From contig NZ_RBCI01000017.1 in assembly GCF_003628535.1 (NCBI RefSeq), positions 1 through 64,000 of the forward strand: 64,000 nucleotides of DNA. The letters are read 5' to 3'. How positions within the stretch are numbered: position 1 is the first letter of the stretch; each line of letters opens with the position of its first letter. Shown in pieces: positions 35,367 to 39,440 of this stretch. Position numbers and translations under genes: made by a program. The notes beneath the pieces were generated by a model. The model was not told the origin of the DNA. It saw only the letters and a list, made by a program, of their open reading frames with translations, and ran no database searches. This DNA is from Flavisolibacter nicotianae. GTDB taxonomy: Bacteria > Bacteroidota > Bacteroidia > Chitinophagales > Chitinophagaceae.

Positions 35367-37295
35367 ATGAGCTACCAACAAACTATTTTTCTGATTCCAC
35401 TGATCCCACTGGTCACCTTTGTGATCTTAGGATTATTCGGCAGAAAATATTTCAATGCCTCTTCCGGTATCATTGGCACCGCATCACTGCTTTTTTCAAC
35501 GGTGCTTTCGTTCTTTACCGCTTATCAATACTTTTTTGTTGACGGCAAGGTGAACGGTGTTTACCAAAAAATTGAAGCGGTAAAGTTTACCTGGCTGCAG
35601 TTTTCACCCAATCTCTCCATCGACATGGGCATCCTTCTCGATCCCATTTCCGTAATGATGATCGTGGTGGTGAGCTTTGTATCCTTGATGGTGCATGTGT
35701 TTAGTTTGGGCTACATGAAAGGGGAGAAGCGCTTTGCCACCTACTATGCATTTCTTTCACTTTTTACTTTTTCAATGCTTGGGCTGGTGCTTTCTTCCAA
35801 TATTTTCCAGATCTATGTTTTCTGGGAACTGGTGGGTGTGTCTTCCTTCCTGCTGATCGGGTTTTACTACGACCGGCCATCGGCGGTTGCGGCTTCCAAA
35901 AAAGCCTTTATCGTGACCCGCTTTGCTGACCTTGGATTCTTGATCGGTATTTTGATCCTTGGATTCTATAGCGGCACGTTGGATTTTGGAACACTGATCG
36001 AACGATTGACCTCAACACAGTCAACGCAATTTATAGGAATAACGACAGCCTCATTCCTGGATGTTTCCATGCTCACTTGGGGGCTGACGTTGGTTTTTGT
36101 GGGCGGCGCCGGTAAATCGGCCATGTTCCCCCTGCATATCTGGCTTCCGGATGCGATGGAAGGTCCCACACCGGTATCGGCCCTGATCCATGCGGCAACG
36201 ATGGTGGTGGCCGGCGTCTACCTGGTGGCCCGGCTCTTCCCGCTGTTTTCCATTGACGAAGCGTCACTGCAGGTGGTCACCTGGGTGGGTGCTTCGTCGG
36301 CATTGATTGCCGCGGTGATTGCCTGTACGCAAACCGATATCAAGCGGGTGCTGGCCTATTCCACCATGTCGCAGATCGGTTACATGATATTTGCCCTGGG
36401 AATTTCACGTTATGGGGGTGAAAACGGTTTGGGTTACATGGGTTCCATGTTCCATCTTTTTACACATGCGTTCTTTAAATCGCTTCTCTTCCTGGGTGCC
36501 GGTGTCGTAATCCACCTGGTGCACAGTAACGACATGAAGGACATGGGAGGGCTGCGCAAGCTGATGCCCATCACGCACATTTCGTTTTTGATTGCCTGTC
36601 TGGCCATTGCCGGTATTCCGCCATTTGCCGGCTTCTTCAGCAAAGAAGAAATTTTATTCGCAGCCTACAACGCGAACAAAGCGGTGTATGGCATTGCTTT
36701 GTTTACAGCCGCACTCACCGCATTTTATATGTTCCGCCTGTATTTCTCTATTTTCTGGAAACGGGAAGCGGCCGTGCACGGGCATCATGGAGAAGGCACG
36801 GTTTCCATGAAACTGCCCCTGGTTATTTTGTCGGTCTGTGCGTTGTTTGCAGGCCTTGTTCCCTTTGCCAACTTCATTACTTCCGATGGTTCACCGCTGG
36901 AAACGCATATGGATATTGTGTTTTCCATTGCACCAGTAACATTGGCAGTGCTGGCCATTCTTATAGCGGCAAATCTCTATAAAACTGAAAACGAAAAGCC
37001 GGCAAGACTTGCGGCTGCGTTGGGTGGCTTTTACACGGCTGCAAAGCGGAAGTTTTACATTGATGAAGTGTACCTGTTCATCACCAAAAAAGTCGTCTTC
37101 AATCTCATTGGCCGTCCGGCTGCCTGGATCGATCGCAATGTGATTGACGGCATGATGAACGGCCTGGCTTATGTTACGGCATCCACGTCGAACCTGATCA
37201 AAGGCGTGCAGTCTGGCCGGGTACAGAATTATGCACTGTACTTTTTCGCCGGCATTGCGGGTCTTGTTGTCTTATATGTCTACCTCTGGAAATAA
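35367..37295 (+). CDS. nuoL: Complex I subunit L (antiporter-like)
   Basis: The distal proton-pumping subunit, 642 residues with about 16 membrane segments and the long amphipathic lateral helix near the C-terminus. Conserved parts are FWELVGVSSFLLIGFYYDRP (about 153-172), MFPLHIWLPDAMEGPTPVSA (about 252-271) and IHAATMVVAGVYL. Full length for the family, with no sign of damage although a transposase gene was inserted 114 bases downstream. Confidence 0.96.
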   Translation: MSYQQTIFLIPLIPLVTFVILGLFGRKYFNASSGIIGTASLLFSTVLSFFTAYQYFFVDGKVNGVYQKIEAVKFTWLQFSPNLSIDMGILLDPISVMMIVVVSFVSLMVHVFSLGYMKGEKRFATYYAFLSLFTFSMLGLVLSSNIFQIYVFWELVGVSSFLLIGFYYDRPSAVAASKKAFIVTRFADLGFLIGILILGFYSGTLDFGTLIERLTSTQSTQFIGITTASFLDVSMLTWGLTLVFVGGAGKSAMFPLHIWLPDAMEGPTPVSALIHAATMVVAGVYLVARLFPLFSIDEASLQVVTWVGASSALIAAVIACTQTDIKRVLAYSTMSQIGYMIFALGISRYGGENGLGYMGSMFHLFTHAFFKSLLFLGAGVVIHLVHSNDMKDMGGLRKLMPITHISFLIACLAIAGIPPFAGFFSKEEILFAAYNANKAVYGIALFTAALTAFYMFRLYFSIFWKREAAVHGHHGEGTVSMKLPLVILSVCALFAGLVPFANFITSDGSPLETHMDIVFSIAPVTLAVLAILIAANLYKTENEKPARLAAALGGFYTAAKRKFYIDEVYLFITKKVVFNLIGRPAAWIDRNVIDGMMNGLAYVTASTSNLIKGVQSGRVQNYALYFFAGIAGLVVLYVYLWK

Positions 37296-37317
37296 AAGAA
37301 TGCTTGTACAAAAGACA

Positions 37318-37383
37318 GGCTCCGTAGGAGCCAAACGTTAGTAGGCAGAAATGGTAAATAGATAAACTAAGCTCCGTGGGAGC
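37318..37383. repeat. Left double-hairpin (REP-like) module of the transposase element
   Basis: GGCTCC-GTA-GGAGCC (37318-37332) and GCTCC-GTG-GGAGC (37371-37383) are two perfect short hairpins 38 bases apart, with GTTAGTAG (37337-37344) after the first. The module is repeated in inverted orientation at 37880-37944 on the other side of the transposase gene. This paired, inverted palindrome layout is that of REP/BIME-type sequences recognised by REP-associated tyrosine transposases. Confidence 0.75.
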
Positions 37384-37409
37384 GAAATAAAAAGCCAAAG
37401 CAATCAATC

Positions 37410-37871
37410 ATGCCAAATACCTATTCACAGATCTACATCCAGATTGTATTTGCAGTCAGAGGCAGGCAAAATTTCATAAACGAATCTTTCAGGGAAGAAA
37501 TACAGAGGTATATGGCAGGTATCATCAACCATAAAAAACAAAGGCTTTATGCCATTTATTGCATGCCAGACCATGTGCATCTTTTGGTTAGCCTGAAGCC
37601 GGACATGGCCGTTTCAGATTTGGTCCGGGACGTCAAAGCCAGTACTACAGCATTTATCAAGGAAAAGGGTTATGTCAACGACGCCTTTGGCTGGCAGGAA
37701 GGTTTTGGCGCATTTAGTTATTCTAAATCACAAACGGAGAAAGTAGTGGACTATATTTTAAATCAGCCGCTGCACCACCATAGAAAAAATTTTCGTGAGG
37801 AATATCATGATTTTCTGGAGCGTTTCGGGATAGCTTACGATGAAAAATACGTCTTTGAATTTTATGATTGA
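37410..37871 (+). CDS. REP-associated / IS200-IS605-type tyrosine (HUH) transposase
   Basis: A 153-residue single-strand DNA transposase of the Y1_Tnp fold. It has the metal-binding HUH motif as H55-V-H57 (MPDHVHLLVSL), the AVSDLVRDVKASTTAFIKE helix (67-85), GWQEGFGAFSYSKSQ (94-108) and the catalytic tyrosine candidate Y115 in VVDYILNQ, followed by a histidine cluster (122-124). The gene sits between nuoL and nuoM, with inverted double-hairpin modules on both sides. No TnpB partner is present. Length and flanks fit a RAYT (domesticated or REP-spreading) protein as well as an IS200-type insertion. It appears intact. Confidence 0.9.
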   Translation: MPNTYSQIYIQIVFAVRGRQNFINESFREEIQRYMAGIINHKKQRLYAIYCMPDHVHLLVSLKPDMAVSDLVRDVKASTTAFIKEKGYVNDAFGWQEGFGAFSYSKSQTEKVVDYILNQPLHHHRKNFREEYHDFLERFGIAYDEKYVFEFYD

Positions 37872-37879
37872 AACATGTC

Positions 37880-37944
37880 GCTCCTACGGAGCTATGTTCA
37901 AGATCGTTGCTGTTTTATCTACTAACAGGTCGAGCCTACGGCTC
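37880..37944. repeat. Right double-hairpin (REP-like) module of the transposase element
   Basis: GCTCC-TAC-GGAGC (37880-37892) and GAGCC-TAC-GGCTC (37932-37944) lie 39 bases apart, with CTACTAAC (37919-37926) before the second. Read on the minus strand this has the same order, spacing and GTTAGTAG box as the left module at 37318-37383, so the two are terminal inverted modules. The right one ends 14 bases before the nuoM ATG. Confidence 0.75.
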
Positions 37945-37958
37945 TTAAATAACGCATT

Positions 37959-39440
37959 ATGAACTTATCACTATTGATCATTGTACCGCTACTTACTGCC
38001 GTCAGCCTGCTCTTTAGCAAGGGACTGAAACAGGTAAGAACATTTTCGCTTGCCGGTTCTGTTGTGCAACTGGCCCTGTCAATTTTTCTGTTGACGGAGT
38101 ATTGGCAGCAACGTTCCACTGTTACCTCACCCATGTTGTTTGAAGATAGTTACACCTGGTTCAAGCCACTCGGCATTAATTACCATGTAGGAGTAGACGG
38201 CATTTCCATTGCCATGATCCTGCTGACGGCCTTTGTAGTGATGGCAGGCGTACTCATTTCCTGGGCACAGGAAACCTGGAGCAAAGAATTCTTCTTCCTG
38301 TTGATGTTGTTGAGCGTGGGAGCGTACGGCTTCTTTATTTCGCTGGATTTGTTTACGTTGTTTTTCTTCCTTGAAGTGGCCGTGATTCCGAAGTTCCTGC
38401 TAATTGGTATCTGGGGCAGTGGTAAAAAGGAGTACAGCGCCATGAAGCTGGCCCTGATGCTCATGGGCGGTTCGGCCCTGGTGTTTGTGGGCTTAGCAGG
38501 CATTTACTATAATACGCAAACCTTCGACATGTTGCAGATTGCCAAAACGTCCATTCCACTGGAGGTGCAGCAATTCTTCTTCCCGTTTGCGTTTGTGGGC
38601 TTTGGTGTCTTTACAGCTTTGTTCCCGTTTCATACCTGGGTGCCGGACGGTCACTCCTCGGCACCCACGGCTGCTTCGATGTTCCTGGCCGGTATTTCCA
38701 TGAAACTGGGTGGCTACGGCTGCCTGCGGGTAGCTACCTTCCTGATGCCCGATGCGGCACATAGCTATTCCTGGATTATCATTCTGCTGGCAACCATTGC
38801 CATTATTTATGGCGCCTTTGCCACCATGATGCAGACAGACCTGAAATACATCAATGCGTATTCCTCCGTCAGTCACTGCGGCTTTGTGCTATTGGGGATC
38901 GGGATGCTGACAAAAACATCCATCAACGGCGCGGTGCTGCAAATGGTGTCGCACGGGTTGATGACAGCCCTTTTCTTTGCCGCCATCGGGATGATCTACA
39001 GCAGGACGCATACAAGGGTGGTGGCGCAACTGGGCGGTTTGCTGAAAGTAACGCCGTTCATTTCCACCGTGTTTGTGATTGCCGGTTTGTGCTCTCTTGG
39101 CTTACCTGGCTTTAGCGGGTTTGTGGCGGAGATGACCGTTTTTATGGGTTCCTGGCAAAACCCGGATGGCTGGTATCGCTTTGCAACGATTTTGGCCTGT
39201 GCTTCCATCGTGGTCACGGCTGTTTACATTTTGCGGGCAACTGGCAAAACCATCATGGGACCCATGAGCAATGCCTACGAAACACTCACCGACGCCACCT
39301 GGAATGAAAAGCTGGCAGCGGGCCTTTTGATCCTTGGTATTGTGATCATTGGCGTTGCGCCATTCTTGTTGAACCAACTGATTGCCCCCGGCACAGATGT
39401 CATTATGCAGCAACTGGGAAAAGCCATCACACTTAAATAG
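37959..39440 (+). CDS. nuoM: Complex I subunit M (antiporter-like)
   Basis: A proton-channel subunit of 493 residues and about 14 membrane segments. Conserved elements include HVGVDGISIAMILLTAFVVM (about 76-95), FLLMLLSVGAYGFFISLDLF, LFPFHTWVPDGHSSAPTAAS (about 221-240) and KLGGYGCLRVATFLMP. Its start lies just beyond the REP element. nuoN follows after eight bases. Confidence 0.96.
   Translation: MNLSLLIIVPLLTAVSLLFSKGLKQVRTFSLAGSVVQLALSIFLLTEYWQQRSTVTSPMLFEDSYTWFKPLGINYHVGVDGISIAMILLTAFVVMAGVLISWAQETWSKEFFFLLMLLSVGAYGFFISLDLFTLFFFLEVAVIPKFLLIGIWGSGKKEYSAMKLALMLMGGSALVFVGLAGIYYNTQTFDMLQIAKTSIPLEVQQFFFPFAFVGFGVFTALFPFHTWVPDGHSSAPTAASMFLAGISMKLGGYGCLRVATFLMPDAAHSYSWIIILLATIAIIYGAFATMMQTDLKYINAYSSVSHCGFVLLGIGMLTKTSINGAVLQMVSHGLMTALFFAAIGMIYSRTHTRVVAQLGGLLKVTPFISTVFVIAGLCSLGLPGFSGFVAEMTVFMGSWQNPDGWYRFATILACASIVVTAVYILRATGKTIMGPMSNAYETLTDATWNEKLAAGLLILGIVIIGVAPFLLNQLIAPGTDVIMQQLGKAITLK

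Follow-up and report, generated by a model that had tools for sequence, protein, structure and literature searches.

The transposase gene between nuoL and nuoM in the 64,000-nt stretch of Flavisolibacter nicotianae DNA analysed here (the window) belongs, with a probability of roughly three in four, to a REPtron-like unit, in which a domesticated Y1 HUH transposase of subclass 1.2 lies between mirror-image copies of the module that it most likely recognises. The observed basis of this reading comprises the architecture of the element, the conservation and covariation of its modules, the co-occurrence of gene and module, dispersed gene-less copies, an empty site in relatives, and purifying selection on the gene where it is held at a fad site. 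The genes nuoL (35367-37295) and nuoM (37959-39440), both named from their translations, bracket the open reading frame tnpA (37410-37871, plus strand), which encodes a 153-residue Y1/HUH transposase and is intact, with a DHVH motif and Tyr115. On the left, the outer hairpin GGCTCC-GTA-GGAGCC (37318-37332, plus strand; 6-bp stem, loop GTA) is followed 4 nt 3' by the box GTTAGTAG (37337-37344, plus strand) and then by the inner hairpin GCTCC-GTG-GGAGC (37371-37383, plus strand; 5-bp stem, loop GTG). The right side repeats this layout on the minus strand, with the inner hairpin GCTCC-GTA-GGAGC at 37880-37892 and the outer hairpin GAGCC-GTA-GGCTC at 37932-37944, each having a 5-bp stem and the loop GTA, and the same box, GTTAGTAG, at 37919-37926, 5 nt 3' of the outer hairpin.

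The two hairpins are separated by 38 nt on the left and 39 nt on the right, and both modules have a TTAGTAG box 3' of the outer hairpin. The layout that an earlier note had described, with two palindromes of the GCTCC-N3-GGAGC type 38-39 bases apart on each side, an equally placed box in inverted orientation, and an intact HUH enzyme between them, is confirmed in full. Its term BIME-like did not hold, because a BIME consists of two REPs in inverse orientation plus a linker: hairpins on the same side are direct repeats, and inversion exists only between the left and right sides. A covariance model of the module (R1) found two places in the 64-kb window and none other, with E-values of 1e-14 and 6e-12 for sequences that both belong to the training set. 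The left module is at 37318-37390 (plus strand, 58.5 bits) and the right module at 37873-37945 (minus strand, 70.3 bits).

We compared the insertion site with that of related genomes. Relatives of the NuoL C-terminus occur in 7 of the 18 genomes of the genus, its own genome counted, and no transposase lies between nuoL and nuoM in any of the six readable relatives, in which the spacers, with nuoM starts placed by eye, measure 6 nt in two, 7 nt in another two, and 23 and 44 nt in the remaining two. In two of them (G010 and G008), 6 nt separate the nuoL stop from the nuoM ATG, and the G010 spacer CGCATT equals the six bases preceding nuoM in the window (37953-37958), so that the insertion spans 37296-37952 or is slightly shorter at its left. 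On this basis, we take the whole inserted element as 657 bp (37296-37952, plus strand), its left edge being uncertain by at most 22 nt. The idea that 22 and 14 bases of original spacer survive held for the 22 nt on the left; of the 14 nt on the right, TTAAATAACGCATT, only CGCATT matches the empty-site spacer of G010. The hexamer AAATAA stands at both edges of the element (37290-37295 and 37947-37952) and might be a short duplication or a coincidence. The element can be called recently placed insofar as it is absent from all six relatives, but recency is only relative, their NuoL C-termini being 50-81% identical. NuoL or NuoM stands beside the gene only at the window's own locus among 80 named loci (the best 80 of at least 586), 30 genus loci, and six family loci with flanks of up to 2 kb; conservation of the gene at this site was thus not found in the relatives examined.

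The module is a real, widespread feature of transposase loci. A protein-alignment scan of genome contigs found at least 586 relatives of the transposase, the best 80 of which were kept as named loci, and homologue loci were picked by protein alone, without using hairpins in the choice. By record title, these best 80 of at least 586 come mostly from Bacteroidota, and also from Verrucomicrobia, Ignavibacteria, a planctomycete, Anaerolineales, Poribacteria, and Jettenia. Their 160-nt sides carry on average 1.63 hairpins, compared with 0.11 after dinucleotide shuffling and 0.19 for distal tiles. Two hairpins spaced 44-58 nt apart are present on 85 of the 155 full sides of the same best 80 of at least 586, whereas shuffles predict 0.4 and 22 of 1304 distal tiles have such a pair, and the spacing peaks at 50 nt; that the hairpins occur as pairs, which the earlier note had proposed to check, is therefore borne out. 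Among 24 genus loci, a correctly spaced pair was found on 20 of 48 sides, versus 0.3 expected and 4 of 275 distal tiles. Strict pairs occupy both sides at 24 of 75 named loci (from the best 80 of at least 586) and at 6 of 24 genus loci. Of nine loci outside the model training, seven show modules no more than about 60 nt from the gene, with E-values below 1e-6; Persicobacter (weak) and Leptolyngbya, the homologue of which is only 24% identical, account for the two misses. In six of these seven, the matches are confined to one side of the gene, so the complete mirror-image layout, though common, is far from a general rule. The short stems (5-6 bp) would be in keeping with chance palindromes near an unrelated gene. 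This explanation, to which we give practically no weight, is contradicted by the shuffles, the distal tiles, box conservation, covariation, and co-occurrence, and is refuted by the pair counts and by the seven of nine untrained loci.

The 89 outer-inner pairs, which probably include a few spurious ones, gave the outer consensus GCYCC-GTA-GGRGC-GAMMTGTTTRTAGAAA and the inner consensus GCTCC-GTA-GGAGC-GACMTGTT, often with a start codon soon after. The T, A, and G of the box are conserved at 93, 89, and 76% in these pairs, and TAG represents its best conserved unpaired bases. Read towards the gene, the loops are GTA in 121 cases versus TAC in 8, and GAA in 32 versus TTC in 9, which gives the module a direction. 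In an alignment of 71 of the 76 collected modules, all ten base pairs change on both sides (143 cells versus 27 in shuffled data); the 100% pairing in this alignment is by construction, because only perfect palindromes were taken as hairpins. Within an element, the left and right modules are more similar to each other than modules from different elements are (p=1e-4 for outer hairpin, inner hairpin, and box; 20 loci). We also observed a gene subtype with three hairpins on at least one side, including a long middle one of the CCGCCGGTGCAACCGGCGG type (L012, L015, L020, L022, and L031), and a hairpin-box unit of about 50 bp repeated three to four times in tandem beside the gene, downstream in L079 and upstream in L092 and L094. 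A match to the Rfam family Flavo-1 (RF01705) lies at L020:242-326, about 500 nt from a transposase gene.

Covariation suits RNA as well as DNA, and the hairpins might instead work at the RNA level, either in the host operon or in the transposase mRNA, as terminators, attenuators, or elements that affect mRNA stability. On the minus strand, T-rich tracts come after both left hairpins, three terminator-like sites were counted versus 0.9 expected, and T-runs follow several hairpins of a composite repeat elsewhere in the genome. On the coding strand, however, all four hairpins lack a terminator-like T-run after them, and an RNA role fails to predict the gene-ward direction, the conserved box, the gene-less mirror pairs, and the co-occurrence with the gene. 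We therefore consider it very unlikely. The window module has no Rfam match up to E 0.1 in its locus (L002). Matches to miRNA families and to whalefall-1 on L209, L189, and L056 are below gathering scores and not credible.

The enzyme matches Pfam Y1_Tnp (3e-24) and passes the NCBIfam IS200/IS605 transposase model NF033573 (69 bits, cut-off 55), whereas it fails the REP-associated tyrosine transposase model NF047646 (45.1 bits, cut-off 80). In an alignment of 22 genus homologues (E<=0.001), the IS200 model matches all 22 and the REP model 19. The signature residues are DHVH (54-57), WQ (95-96), Y115, Q119, and HH (122-123), and D54, H55, H57, W95, Q96, Y115, Q119, and H123 are invariant in all 22 aligned members. 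The tyrosine motif, YILNQPLHHH, reads Y---Q--HH, and the RAYT-type Y---NP is absent. A simple pattern finds Y---Q--HH in 74 of the 80 named homologues, and 69 of them have Y---Q--HH, DH[IV]H, and WQ together (in both cases among the best 80 of at least 586). Y---Q--HH, the length, and WQ are features given for TnpA_Y1 subclass 1.2 in the classification of Quentin et al. (2018; PMC6006769). Judged by sequence, the window enzyme is thus an IS200-type enzyme with the signature of TnpA_Y1 subclass 1.2. The earlier note had called the gene a RAYT; the Y---Q--HH motif in place of Y---NP and the missed NF047646 cut-off rule out a canonical RAYT. In a profile search against solved structures, eight distinct sequences were found at E<=0.001, with ISDra2 first and IS608 included, all eight named transposases or putative transposases. 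With the AlphaFold model (mean pLDDT 86), the TnpA proteins of ISDra2 and IS608 rank first, and the REP-associated transposase 4er8 ranks 30th; the nearest solved structures are thus IS200-type enzymes that bind hairpins.

The IS200 model score and the closeness to the ISDra2 and IS608 structures, together with the empty nuoL/nuoM site in relatives, would also suit a conventional IS200-like insertion sequence, whose gene and two hairpin ends jump together and whose MITEs are the gene-less mirror pairs; one gene-less element in G004 (L198) retains, by eye, the first codons of the gene. We regard this as unlikely. The second copy in the same genome (G000:C2:517684-518136; L003, L239) is only 39% identical to that of the window, interrupted by one TGA, and flanked by GCCCC hairpins, and identities within other genomes are 36-80% in 14 pairs, not every copy being compared; neither the own-genome pair nor these 14 pairs include near-identical gene-bearing copies. 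Modules also far outnumber genes, the outer hairpins of the gene-less elements in G071 are terminal rather than subterminal, and the gene is held at one site in several genera under purifying selection, as described below. Carriage by plasmids or phages was likewise rejected as an explanation: 6 of 72,556 plasmid records match the transposase (two at 56 and 35% identity, four at 24-26%), as do 2 of 50,697 phage records (25-30% identity).

The held site lies between two fad genes, a 3-hydroxyacyl-CoA dehydrogenase/enoyl-CoA hydratase-like gene and a thiolase-like gene as named from their translations, and was found in 11 of the 80 named loci (the best 80 of at least 586; Chryseobacterium 6, Amniculibacterium 1, and Flavobacterium 4). 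At least one hairpin is present on each side of the gene at these loci, and dN/dS is 0.036-0.168 in 14 pairs from 10 of the 11. RAYTs are described as housekeeping-like genes in a published account (PMC8266576). Divergent copies, a held site, and purifying selection fit this description better than that of an active insertion sequence.

The earlier note had suggested seeking solo modules, and modules of this architecture were found. In its own genome, model R1 gave at least 38 matches at E<=0.1, 36 of them at E<=0.01; two flank the gene and 36 of the 38 are gene-less. The hairpin GCTCC-GTA-GGAGC occurs at seven further places in this genome and is therefore not unique to the site. Of the 36 other matches, 31 lie in an intergenic-looking composite repeat of about 370 bp (L052-L071 by alignment; L201, L202, L204-L206, and L208 by eye; L232-L235 and L237 by a string test), four are separate solo modules (L203, L207, L236, and L238), and one is a single hairpin (L046). 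The solo modules L203, L236, and L238 adjoin short tandem repeat runs of GGAGTTT. Each copy of the composite repeat is a mosaic of several different hairpins, some followed by the T-runs mentioned above, with one double-hairpin module per copy; stop-to-stop stretches of at least 100 residues overlap 17 of 20, and reading-frame overlap is uninformative for this repeat. Since 31 of the 38 matches lie inside this repeat, what spread there may have been a unit other than the module. Its modules have mostly GCCCC as the outer stem and rank 16 and 23 of 76 in closeness to the window modules, so descent of the own-genome solo modules directly from the window element is unsupported. With another outer stem and nearer kin elsewhere, their service by the window enzyme is unsupported as well.

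At the level of the genus and family, gene and module go together. Among the 18 genus genomes (gene E<=1e-10, module E<=0.01), ten have gene and module, three the gene alone, one the module alone, and four neither. Among 117 family genomes (gene E<=1e-20, module E<=1e-3), the corresponding numbers are 45, 4, 9, and 59 (Fisher p 1e-18, uncorrected for kinship). These 117 genomes contain at least 742 modules versus 96 gene hits, which include fragments, and in 45 of 54 genomes the modules number more than two for each gene copy; module counts are lower bounds, as 42 or 150 candidates were scored per genome.

Gene-less modules also occur as facing pairs. In G071, a genome of one 7.3-Mb contig, seven elements of 140-149 bp (L209-L215) consist of two facing modules with 2-7 nt between the model matches, and their ends coincide with the outer hairpins. 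Their flanks share just scattered matches of 11-17 nt, and by eye we saw neither a target duplication nor a clear target motif at the seven sites. All seven are intergenic by reading frames, four of them between convergent genes, and one folded as DNA reached -51 kcal/mol versus -13 in shuffles. A gene locus of the same genome (L217) has a module of the mini-element type on one side. Similar mirror pairs are present in G008 and G011, and G004 has one, the element L198 with the first codons of the gene; those in G008 sit in a larger repeat, because the shared sequence extends beyond the outer hairpins.

For the mechanism, drawn from IS608, ISDra2, and TnpA_REP, we infer binding, cleavage position, strand, and mobilisation of modules in trans by analogy. 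Each module, the likely target of the enzyme, runs from an outer hairpin through a TTTRTAG-type box, which starts about 6 nt 3' of it, and a spacer rich in A to an inner hairpin, whose start lies about 50 nt beyond that of the outer one. The enzyme might act when the DNA is single-stranded, as in the lagging-strand template, binding the folded hairpins as a dimer like its solved relatives. Tyr115 would then make the cut, via a 5'-phosphotyrosine, at or close to the box or the outer hairpin, and the ends would be rejoined. Being the best conserved of the unpaired parts outside the loops, the TTTRTAG-type box is a candidate cleavage site; read towards the gene, it stands 3' of the hairpin, and on the other strand it reads CTAYAAA and stands 5' of the hairpin. 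Gene-less modules and mirror-pair mini-elements might thus be moved or amplified in trans, and the gene itself might move only rarely.

We compared this system with RAYT/TnpA_REP REPtrons of class 2 (Nunvar 2010, Bertels and Rainey 2011, Quentin 2018, and Corneloup 2021), with which it shares a Y1 HUH enzyme in few divergent copies, inverted flanking palindromes, gene-less copies, and a housekeeping-like gene. The inverted flanking palindromes and solo copies that mark a REPtron are both present, although the solo copies in the genome of the window share its architecture without being its closest kin. The enzyme differs in having the class-1 motif Y---Q--HH and an IS200 score, and the repeats differ in being tandem double hairpins with stems of 5-6 bp. 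In addition, RAYT/TnpA_REP systems have GTAG or GTGG 0-2 nt 5' of the hairpin foot, whereas here the TTTRTAG-type box, with a conserved RTAG, stands 3' of the hairpin. TnpA_Y1 subclass 1.2 as outlined in PMC6006769 shares Y---Q--HH, DH[IV]H, WQ, a length of about 150 residues, occurrence in Bacteroidota, and few divergent copies per genome; its entry there gives neither REPs nor IS properties, whereas here we found conserved modules and gene-less relatives. The REP search described in that work required GTAG or GTGG 0-2 nt 5' of a 7-20-bp stem (Quentin 2018, PMC6006769), a criterion that the modules found here would fail. IS608 and ISDra2 of the IS200/IS605 family have the closest solved enzymes and hairpins at both ends, but the ends of the window element are mirror images with two hairpins each, and the copies compared are not near-identical. 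Tyrosine transposases flanked by terminal inverted repeats have been reported by Di Nocera (2013; PMC3733652), and 20 of those 26 enzymes are placed in subclass 2.1 by Quentin 2018 (PMC6006769). The 140-149-bp mirror pairs of G071 resemble REPINs. In the literature searched, outside which subscription papers largely fell, we found no description of double-hairpin modules or of REPs of subclass 1.2.

A sister subtype of the module may already be listed as an RNA. The Rfam family RF01687 (Acido-Lenti-1; Weinberg 2010) is characterised in its published entry as a probable RNA, neither cis-regulatory nor a switch (PMC2864571), and its hairpin subtype differs from that of the window. At gathering score, RF01687 matches hairpins flanking two related transposase genes (L003:2008-2052 and L021:2043-2088). 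Across the genus, 82 matches at E<=0.01 lie in 6 of 18 genomes, of which 22, in four genomes, exceed the cut-off; among 14 control genomes, a match was found in one and none exceeded the cut-off. By hand count, 9 of the 82 matches are no more than 300 nt away from a gene hit versus about 0.07 expected (25 gene hits and about 30 Mb in six genomes). The genomes concerned are G008, G001, G003, and G016; in G008, eight pairs of matches form mirror pairs with a distance of about 155 nt. Since RF01687 coincides with transposase-flanking hairpins and mirror pairs, it may be a transposase-associated DNA module, which suggests that its sites represent the DNA module of a sister subtype.

In a broader sense, these observations might reflect a second, separate domesticated line of REP-moving enzymes, in which IS200-class enzymes of subclass 1.2 in operon spacers of Bacteroidota, and also in other phyla, would maintain populations of double-hairpin modules and mirror-pair mini-elements of 140-200 bp, and at least one Rfam candidate RNA, Acido-Lenti-1, would be one of their single-stranded DNA modules. 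We hold this wider proposal to be evenly balanced between true and false. How REPs spread and why bacteria retain REP transposases is put forward as an open question in PMC8266576, bench work so far having dealt with class-2 enzymes. Here, an enzyme nearer to the well-understood IS608 and ISDra2 shows a RAYT-like life style with few divergent copies, purifying selection, a fixed site, and gene-less repeats. The system offers an independent case for comparison with many natural pairs of enzyme and module; it would fill the 'no REP' entry of subclass 1.2 and may recast an orphan Rfam family as DNA.
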